Assembly: GCA_003218375.1 (NCBI GenBank)
Contig: QHNH01000010.1
Location: 187,887-251,886, forward strand
From: Verrucomicrobiota bacterium
GTDB lineage: Bacteria; Verrucomicrobiota; Verrucomicrobiia; Chthoniobacterales; UBA10450
DNA length: 64,000 nt
Reading direction: 5' to 3'
Part shown: in pieces, positions 19,992 through 27,290 of the stretch
Layout of the letters: each line of letters starts with the position of its first letter
Position numbering within the stretch: position 1 is the stretch's first letter
Notes under the pieces: generated by a model
The model's database searches: none
What the model was told of the DNA's origin: nothing
Seen by the model: only the letters and a program-made list of their open reading frames with translations
Program-made: the position numbers and the translations under genes

Positions 19992-20954
19992 ATGGTGAAG
20001 TCCGCCAAACACAATCCCGCGCGAGGCCACCGAACCACGTCAGAAAGATCGACCGTGCTGGGTAGAGCCTTTAGGATTGAGCCGATCAACGTTGACTCGG
20101 TGTTCTCAGTTCTCGACGCTGTTTCGTGGCTCGGCGATGCAGACGTTGGCCGAATCGCGCAATTTGCCGGGGTTGATGCCCGTACCGCGGGCAAGGTCGT
20201 TAAGAATTGCGTATTATTTCGATTAGTGAATCGGAAGAACGCGAACTTCTCGATGGCTGTTCCATATCCTTTCAAAGGCAGCAAGGATGAGAAGAAGGCG
20301 GTGATCCGCGAGGCTCTCTTGAAGCTGCCACTCGTGTTCCACTTACGACAGTTTCTTTCATTCGGCGAAAATTCCGCTGTCGCGTTGCGGAAGGCTGCGA
20401 CAATGATCGGCATTGAGCCATACGACGAAGGAGCAGTCAGCCCCATTTTGAAGTGGGCGCGGGAATTGGAAGTCCTTGAAGCATCTGTGACGACGGAGGC
20501 TTTAGTCGATGCAGCTACTGAAACGAAAGAGCGACGACATCGCGGCCACGACGAACGTATCGTCGCATTCCTCTCGCACAGCTCTGCCGACAAAGTGTTC
20601 GCTCGTCGGCTAGCCGCAGACCTAACGGCTCAGGGAATAACAATTTGGCTCGACGAAGAGAACATTCTGGTAGGTGATTCCATCACCGAAAAAATCGGCC
20701 AGGGACTCGCTCAATCCGATTTCTTTCTGATTGTTCTAAGCGCGAATGCACTCGCCTCAGAATGGGTGAAAAAGGAGTTGAACCAAGCGCTCATTGCAGA
20801 AGTCGAGAAACGCAAAGTGCATATCTTGCCCGTACGTATCGATGCCAGTGAGATTCCACCGTTGCTGAAGGACAAACATTTTGCCGATTTCGCGAAGTCG
20901 TACACGGAGGGGTTTGAGAAGTTATTAACGGCAATGAAACGAAGGGACACTTGA
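19992..20954 (+). CDS. TIR-domain protein with N-terminal DUF5343-like domain
   Basis: A 320-residue protein. Residues 188-310 form a TIR domain: IVAFLSHSSADKVFARRLAADL, GITIWLDEENILVGDSI, QSDFFLIVLSANALASEWVKKEL, with Glu262 in the WVKKE position that is catalytic in NAD-cleaving TIRs such as SARM1. Residues about 30-165 form a helical, winged-helix-like domain (VDSVFSVLDAVSWLGDADVGRIAQFAG, then KLPLVFHLRQFLSF) that resembles the partner protein encoded one base downstream. TIR proteins in bacteria often act in antiphage defence by NAD depletion. A defence role here is inference. By eye the gene has lower GC than its neighbours. Confidence 0.85.
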   Translation: MVKSAKHNPARGHRTTSERSTVLGRAFRIEPINVDSVFSVLDAVSWLGDADVGRIAQFAGVDARTAGKVVKNCVLFRLVNRKNANFSMAVPYPFKGSKDEKKAVIREALLKLPLVFHLRQFLSFGENSAVALRKAATMIGIEPYDEGAVSPILKWARELEVLEASVTTEALVDAATETKERRHRGHDERIVAFLSHSSADKVFARRLAADLTAQGITIWLDEENILVGDSITEKIGQGLAQSDFFLIVLSANALASEWVKKELNQALIAEVEKRKVHILPVRIDASEIPPLLKDKHFADFAKSYTEGFEKLLTAMKRRDT

Positions 20955-20955
20955 A

Positions 20956-21741
20956 ATGACGCAAGCAAGTAAAGCAAAACCGCCCGGAGGGCGAAAAGGA
21001 GGTACGCGATTCCCACAGATTCCACTTGGGAAAGCGGTGGAATACGCAAAGAAGCTAGTGGCGAAAACACATTCAGGTCCACAACCGCAGGACCAAATTC
21101 TCGGAGGTGTATTCAACAGTCTCAGCTGGGTCGGCGACGTAAAGCTTTCTGCTGTGAAGCAGTTCGGATTGCTCCAAGGAGATCGCGCGGGTTACGAAGC
21201 TACAGAGCTCGCGAAACAGATTGCTGCCGCGCCCGATGAAGAGCTACCTCCATTGTTGCAGCGGGCGTGTCTGACGCCGCCGATCTTCAAGGCGTTGTTT
21301 GAGACGTTTCACAACGACGAAGTGTCGCTCGCGAAAATCCGCCAAGTAGCCGCACACCAAAAGGTGCACATCGATTCCGCAGATAAATGCGTAGATTTAT
21401 TCGTCGCCTCTACCGAATTCGCGGGTTTAGGATCACGTAACGGCGAGACGGTAAAGTTTTCAGCCCGCGATTCGGGATCGTCAGATTCGGAGAACGCACC
21501 ATCAAATGAGGACGAGGGCGGTGCAGCAAACGTTCAAGGCGAACGCGACAGTGATGATAATACGAACAAGCGCCGTTCCAGCAAAGATGTTCAGGCAATG
21601 GCAGCGACCACAGAATTACCGCCGCCCAGCAGCCGCAGCCGAGTCAATCCTGTCCAAGTAAATATCACGATTGATCCGACTATGGATCCCGAGAAGCTTG
21701 AGAGACACCTTAAGCTCCTGCGAGGTTACGGAATTTGTTGA
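20956..21741 (+). CDS. DUF5343-like partner protein of the TIR gene
   Basis: A 261-residue protein that starts one base after the TIR stop. Residues 46-160 (DQILGGVFNSLSWVGDVKLSAVKQFG, then PPIFKALFETFHNDEVSLAKIRQVA and CVDLFVASTEFAGL) resemble DUF5343, a winged-helix-type domain of unknown role, and align with the N-terminal half of the TIR protein. A long polar, acidic linker (about 168-220) leads to a short C-terminal segment VNITIDPTMDPEKLERHLKLLR, similar to endings of DUF5343 proteins. It has no TIR or nuclease motif, so it may be a sensor or regulator. Confidence 0.7.
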   Translation: MTQASKAKPPGGRKGGTRFPQIPLGKAVEYAKKLVAKTHSGPQPQDQILGGVFNSLSWVGDVKLSAVKQFGLLQGDRAGYEATELAKQIAAAPDEELPPLLQRACLTPPIFKALFETFHNDEVSLAKIRQVAAHQKVHIDSADKCVDLFVASTEFAGLGSRNGETVKFSARDSGSSDSENAPSNEDEGGAANVQGERDSDDNTNKRRSSKDVQAMAATTELPPPSSRSRVNPVQVNITIDPTMDPEKLERHLKLLRGYGIC

Positions 21742-26711: not shown

Positions 26712-27289
26712 TTAGAGTCTGCGCTTTGTCCGATAACAGGCGTCCCGTTCGCGGACATGGAAACCGATTTCGCGTTTCGGCTTCGCTTCCGGCTCAAGCA
26801 ACTGCTTCAAGACAGCGAAGAGCTCTATGATCGCCTCATCATGCGAATCCAACCGCCGTTCCAAGTCATTTAACTTTGCCGCTAACTGCGCGTTAGCTGC
26901 GACCATTTCTCGCAGGCAGACGAACGCACGAACAACCCGCACGCTGGCTTGAACCGCAACCTGACTATTCAAACAGCTCGCGAGCATGATCGCGCCATGC
27001 TCCGTGAAGACCCATGGGAGTTTCCGGCGCCCACCTCTCCCCTTTTTTGATATCGCAATTTGCGATATCAAACGTTTGAACTCCTCGGAAGTAAGCTGGA
27101 ACGCGAAATCCTCGGGGAATCGCTGGCGATTGCGGCGAAATTGCTCGTTCAGACGCATCGTGCTGGTTCCGTAGAGCGCCGCCAGATCCGAATCCAGCAT
27201 GACCCGTTGCCCGCGGACCAAATAGATGGCGGATTCGACGTTATCGAGACGAGCTGAGGGAGAAGATTTGGGCATCACCAGCGAGATCA

Positions 27290-27290
<1 letters not shown>
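26712..27290 (-). CDS. ORF6N domain DNA-binding protein inside the atp operon
   Basis: A 192-residue protein with an N-terminal ORF6N domain: VESAIYLVRGQRVMLDSDLAALYGTSTMRLNEQFRRNRQRFPEDFAFQLT, then WVFTEHGAIMLASCLNS, followed by a coiled-coil-like tail. ORF6N proteins occur in phages and mobile elements. The stop of atpA and its start share a base (TAATG), and atpG starts three bases after its stop, so it is translated as part of the ATP synthase operon. It is likely a lineage-specific insertion that kept reading-frame coupling. Function is unknown. Confidence 0.88.

Follow-up and report, generated by a model that had tools for sequence, protein, structure and literature searches.

The window, a stretch of 64,000 nucleotides from a Verrucomicrobiota bacterium (contig QHNH01000010.1), contains a pair of neighbouring open reading frames (ORFs), which lie on the same strand and together take up 1.75 kb. 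The first encodes a TIR protein and the second a partner protein, and 1 base lies between the TIR stop codon and the partner start (TGA-a-ATG). The lengths of 320 and 261 aa and the single-base spacing, which had been given in an earlier note on this DNA, were verified for both ORFs. A profile of the N-terminal region of the TIR protein, searched in about 85,000 species genomes, reached four loci, i.e. those of Hydrogenophilales (L008), Aquimarina litoralis (L009) and the Kiritimatiellaeota and Verrucomicrobia MAGs from Lake Pavin (L010 and L011). The features of the pair are as follows (positions in the window):

19992..20954, + strand: TIR effector gene (ORF, 320 aa; full-length homologues 39-50% identical in L008, L009, L010 and L011)
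20067..20480, + strand: predicted N-terminal winged-helix-plus-helices domain, residues 26-163 of the TIR protein (AlphaFold model H-H-H-E-E-H-H-H-H)
20559..20945, + strand: TIR domain, residues 190-318 (Pfam TIR_2 E=5e-31; AbTir E=1e-12; SPARTA TIR-APAZ Z 15.5)
20775..20777, + strand: codon of E262, the putative catalytic Glu (WVKKE, aligned to AbTir WTNYE)
20956..21741, + strand: partner gene (ORF, 261 aa; homologues in L008, 46%, and L009, 48%, frameshifted)
20998..21465, + strand: predicted tandem winged-helix domain, partner residues 15-170, after the basic GGRKGG arm (AlphaFold pLDDT mostly >90)
21466..21654, + strand: acidic linker predicted to be disordered, partner residues 171-233 (pLDDT <50; net charge -4)
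21655..21738, + strand: conserved C-terminal tail (VNITIDPTMDPEKLERHLKLLRGYG) with a predicted helix at 245-258 (kept in the L008 and L009 partners)

The pair had been judged by eye to be lower in GC than its surroundings, and the figures agree with this: the GC content of the TIR and partner genes is 0.522 and 0.532, respectively, versus 0.59-0.62 in four flanking genes, and the GC3 values are 0.58 and 0.52 versus 0.66-0.75. The neighbours are sugar transporter, TonB, nucleoside hydrolase, LpxI and ATP synthase genes; an ORF6N-domain gene (window 26712-27290, - strand, E=4.7e-33) lies inside the atp operon, between the genes of the ATP synthase gamma and alpha subunits. The search for repeats or terminators delimiting an inserted element gave nothing exceeding chance. 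The survey for nearby defence genes proposed in the earlier note had a divided outcome, since no recognised defence gene was seen among the genes flanking the window's pair, whereas the Aquimarina copy adjoins another TIR-like gene. The latter (L009 6003-7748) encodes a ThsB_TIR-like + FGE-sulfatase protein and directly follows the Aquimarina pair.

The TIR protein was matched by the curated HMM PF13676 (TIR_2) over residues 193-312, with 108 bits against a cut-off of 28. The sequence search gave AbTir, BtpA/TcpB and Cat1 as relatives of the TIR domain (E 1e-12 to 4e-10 for AbTir/BtpA/TcpB). When the full TIR model was searched by fold, TIR domains filled the list, with SPARTA TIR-APAZ nearest (Z 15.5, rmsd 2.6, 133 residues, 26% identity). 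The segment W258-V-K-K-E262 aligns with W-T-N-Y-E of AbTir, i.e. with the WxxxE position, the Glu being located on helix C, and the proposal that Glu262 is of the catalytic type is borne out to this extent. The residue is kept in 4 of the 5 homologues, including L010, and is replaced by Gly in L011. Membership in this family strongly suggests that the TIR protein would act as an NADase. Its N-terminal domain had no family match in Pfam, NCBIfam, PHROGs or PADLOC, and the motifs YPxKGS, RQFL and ALRKAAT were invariant in this domain when the homologues were compared. The model of the domain was built from five sequences only, with pLDDT of about 75-93.

The partner likewise gave no credible match in Pfam, PHROGs, NCBIfam or PADLOC, and a profile search with both N-terminal domains against the sequences of solved structures yielded nothing credible. 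The AlphaFold model of the partner is confident for residues 21-170 and shows disorder for 173-233, and the first 22 residues, with the basic GGRKGG arm, carry a net charge of +5. Foldseek and VIA-align searches with the predicted model, covering 145-171 residues, found FokI (Z 10.2), N.BspD6I (9.3), BrxA (9.2), SspB (9.2) and BpuJI (8.3) as the folds nearest to the first 170 residues, and the BrxA relative 3bhw was also among them. Z scores of 8-10 are moderate, but the top rows are taken by different restriction or defence proteins aligned across the entire domain; lower down, most rows cover one winged helix only. At these moderate scores, the predicted model has the recognition-domain fold of the FokI/BrxA/SspB type. 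The two HTH motifs of BrxA can be superposed on the DNA-bound forms of FokI and BpuJI, and BrxA was tested on phage lambda DNA by EMSA (PMC9240713). Two later surveys group BrxA, FokI and SspB (PMC12839542) and, separately, DndG, FokI and SspB (PMC10853773) as tandem HTH/winged-helix recognition modules. Judged by its model, the partner is a probable DNA-binding protein. The long acidic linker and conserved-looking tail described for it in the earlier note were found as net acidic, predicted disordered sequence and as a tail retained in the homologues; a similar tail is present in the distant relative L017.

The partner profile also picked up remote proteins that share the shape of the partner, from Pseudomonadota and Bacteroidota (L015, L016, L017, L018 and L020; E 3e-7 to 8e-4). 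L015, L017, L018 and L020 are free-standing relatives with a winged-helix domain, an acidic linker and a strand-helix tail, and no curated family matched them above the cut-off. L016 (1030-2418, - strand) is a 463-aa protein, in which a partner-like tandem winged-helix domain is followed by a C-terminal NDT/TIR-like domain matching the PADLOC model 'Effector, TIR' (E=1.9e-8). In L016, judged by its sequence matches, the two parts have been fused independently, and they therefore also occur in a single gene. The candidate matches L002, L019 and L027 were rejected as chance, judged by composition and context.

The partner is found at 3 of the 5 intact TIR loci, so that the TIR gene is not always alone, and the co-occurrence expected in the earlier note is seen in part, as two loci have no partner. 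The order of the genes is the same at the paired loci of three phyla and the tight coupling noted earlier recurs there: besides the 1-base gap of the window, the Hydrogenophilales partner (274 aa, 46% identical to the window's partner) overlaps the TIR gene by 4 bases and the Aquimarina partner by about 11 bases. The Aquimarina partner is interrupted by a single frameshift, perhaps an error of sequencing, and the two parts of it share 44-55% identity with the window's partner. All three known paired loci were reached via the TIR protein and the co-occurrence count is thus biased. In both Lake Pavin genomes the TIR gene is present and the partner was not found anywhere; the TIR gene overlaps an ABC1/UbiB-type kinase gene in its place (L010 5989-8701, L011 5977-8674). 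These two TIR copies form one clade and are 87% identical. A genuine pairing exists in three phyla, although it is not universal.

An unannotated, decayed fragment of the TIR family adjoins a fimbrial cluster on a plasmid of Salmonella Birkenhead (L005 4968-5335) and shares 82% identity with the Hydrogenophilales protein over 83 residues; no intact E. coli copies of this fragment were found. Relatives of the partner and of the TIR N-terminal domain were not found in viral contigs, nor were relatives of the partner found in plasmids. The TIR N-terminal domain was not found in seven congeners of the window's genome. In the five congeners with a readable region, the downstream nucleoside hydrolase-LpxI block is conserved, together with TonB in two of them, and the upstream side varies between species. 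The low GC, the absence from the seven congeners, the variable upstream junction and the 82%-identical plasmid fragment all point to horizontal transfer, and the picture is one of a rare pair of scattered occurrence that has spread horizontally.

The earlier note proposed that the effector and the partner share a related N-terminal domain, which stands for the order of the predicted fold and does not stand for sequence significance. BLASTP of the two N-terminal halves gave a weak similarity (E=0.002 in a single comparison, 23% over 79 aa), and the score of the profile-profile comparison, 15.5, was equalled by 11 of 100 column shuffles and is not significant. The structural comparison suggested in that note was run on the secondary-structure strings of the two AlphaFold models, not by superposition, and the similarity held: 133 residues could be aligned with 92% in the same state and 13 identities (10%), and none of 300 block-shuffled controls reached this score. 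The alignments behind the two models have no sequence in common. Nine consecutive elements match in order, type and spacing between the two models, and the last beta wing of the partner is absent from the TIR half. As the predicted elements match but the sequence comparison is not significant, the idea of a shared domain is supported at the level of the fold, not of the sequence. The motif pair PLVFHLRQF and PPIFKALFETF, which had been adduced for the relationship, is in register with the secondary-structure alignment. In contrast, the pair SWLGDADVGRIAQFAG and SWVGDVKLSAVKQFG does not keep this register, as TIR residue 40 is paired with partner residue 30 and not 52, and this resemblance was a coincidence. 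The suggested likeness of both proteins to DUF5343 was not confirmed by the HMM search, in which PF17278 matches neither of them at E<=1.

A shared fold of the two N-terminal halves is likely according to the models, and their common ancestry is plausible but unproven. It is quite possible, if somewhat short of probable, that the likeness reflects convergence on the common winged-helix topology and not shared ancestry, in which case the proteins need not interact through it. The non-significant profile comparison, the identity of 13 among 133 residues and the unlike conserved motifs of the two families agree with convergence, but the agreement of nine consecutive elements in type, order and spacing exceeds a single winged helix and the HMM alignment landed in the same register unguided. 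Convergence would be compatible with the functional readings considered below. In animal immunity, TIR or death domains are common to receptor and adaptor. That a sensor and an effector arose here from one duplicated tandem winged-helix domain, a DNA-sensing TIR system being assembled in a like manner by the pairing of homologous domains, is a doubtful possibility.

As the most economical account, we tentatively read the pair, with not quite even confidence, as a mobile two-component system of abortive infection, in which an NADase is joined to a nucleic-acid-binding sensor. The TIR protein would be a latent NAD+ hydrolase, the C-terminal TIR domain of which stays off until several copies gather, and its N-terminal winged-helix/helical domain would be the regulatory, docking half. 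The partner, with its basic arm and tandem winged helices of the FokI/BrxA/SspB recognition type, would serve as the nucleic-acid sensor, whereas its flexible acidic linker and short strand-helix tail could oligomerise or touch the TIR protein. Binding of the partner to invader DNA (or to phage nucleoprotein) would cluster the TIR proteins and NAD+ would be depleted. The reading is based on the TIR domain with its WxxxE Glu aligned to the NADase AbTir and its fold nearest to SPARTA TIR-APAZ, on the partner fold nearest to the recognition domains of restriction enzymes, SspB and BrxA, on the gene order and coupling maintained in three phyla, and on the L016 fusion of winged-helix and TIR-like parts. 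From these observations we infer the NADase activity, the DNA binding, the contact between the TIR protein and the partner, the trigger and the role in defence, and a sensor-effector role in defence is plausible. There are precedents for such a mechanism: the NADase of SPARTA is unleashed by tetramerisation upon nucleic-acid binding (PMC11156904) and the N-terminal sensing domain of SpbK clusters the C-terminal TIR (PMC12847820).

Several observations count against the sensor reading. The window's pair is not flanked by recognised defence genes, two Lake Pavin TIR genes are partnerless, one of them minus the catalytic Glu, and only three paired loci are known, with ascertainment based on the TIR protein. 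Moreover, the partner model reached moderate fold scores, and contacts between proteins, too, can be made by winged helices. The case for an obligatory role of the partner as a sensor and, equally, as an antidote is weakened by the TIR genes that stand without it.

The strongest competing reading is that of a toxin-antitoxin-like pair: the winged-helix partner would repress the operon and/or inhibit the TIR NADase through hetero-association of the similar N-terminal domains, and loss or titration of the partner would free the toxin. We consider this not very likely, although a small putative DNA-binding partner is translated together with the toxin gene and the like folds of the two N-terminal halves could hetero-associate. 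The partner linker is also acidic and disordered, resembling many labile antitoxins, which contain such a segment. The toxin-then-antitoxin order is, however, the rarer one, and the TIR gene persists in L010 and L011 with no partner in the genome; since the L010 protein has nevertheless kept its Glu, the need for the partner as an antidote is not general. The same partnerless genes would fit a TIR protein which senses a phage protein itself via its N-terminal domain, as SpbK does (PMC12847820), the partner being an auxiliary regulator or enhancer that the core function does not require. The strong conservation of the YPxKGS, RQFL and ALRKAAT motifs in that domain is in agreement with this. Such self-sensing is nonetheless unlikely, since the partnerless copies are a single close clade, one member of which has lost the catalytic Glu, and the partner has been retained across three distant phyla. 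Thoeris-like signalling, with a cyclic ADP-ribose signal made by the TIR protein and the partner or a distant gene as the receptor, is highly improbable even though ThsB TIR models match weakly by sequence and TIRs of this class can make cyclic ADPR (SpbK, PMC12847820), because the partner, a predicted tandem winged helix, contains no SLOG, macro, effector or membrane domain and no ThsA-like gene lies beside the pair.

TIR NADase defence systems are already well known. Known bacterial TIR systems detect invaders by capturing phage proteins directly or via Argonaute, cyclic-nucleotide receptors or NLR-type ATPases. A two-gene system of TIR and winged-helix proteins was not found in the open-access literature or in the defence and family libraries searched. 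Judged largely from predicted models, the operon that joins a TIR protein bearing such an N-terminal half to a tandem winged-helix protein resembling FokI and BrxA seems to represent a form of antiviral defence in bacteria that has not been described before. If the two-component sensor reading is true, the joining of a TIR NADase with a FokI/BrxA-like recognition protein would be a minimal, guide-free coupling of DNA recognition to NAD+ depletion, and restriction-type recognition modules would have been reused as a trigger of cell suicide.

The pair could not be assigned to Thoeris, the ThsB HMMs of which match the TIR region only and weakly, or to BREX, as metabolic and ATP synthase genes are found in place of BrxC, PglX and PglZ neighbours. 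The partner resembles BrxA of BREX, SspB and FokI/BpuJI/N.BspD6I in the tandem winged-helix/HTH recognition fold (Z 8-10 over 145-171 residues, with no detectable sequence similarity), but it is coupled to a TIR protein and no BREX, phosphorothioate or restriction genes are nearby. AbTir and BtpA/TcpB are relatives of the TIR domain at the sequence level (E 1e-12 to 4e-10) and share the WxxxE Glu, but they are TIR proteins of bacterial pathogens which have neither the N-terminal domain nor the partner. The best PADLOC match, the candidate PDC-S66, covers the TIR region alone (residues 177-281, E=3e-25); about 135 residues precede its TIR domain, but the N-terminal region of our protein is unmatched and no two-gene layout was found described for PDC-S66. 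SpbK of Bacillus subtilis is similar in that its TIR NADase is C-terminal and is preceded by a sensing/regulatory domain at the N-terminus (PMC12847820), but it is a single gene, the 94-residue N-terminal domain of which binds the phage portal protein, and PADLOC spbK matches the TIR protein weakly (E=0.03 over 43 residues), so that membership was rejected. The pair is not a SPARTA system (short pAgo + TIR-APAZ) either, since the short pAgo gene and the APAZ domain are absent, as are MID and PIWI, the partner is a predicted tandem winged helix with no family match, and the TIR domain is C-terminal here and N-terminal in SPARTA. What the two have in common is the two-gene arrangement, the TIR fold (Z 15.5, 26% identity) and, as the logic proposed for our pair, a partner that senses nucleic acid.
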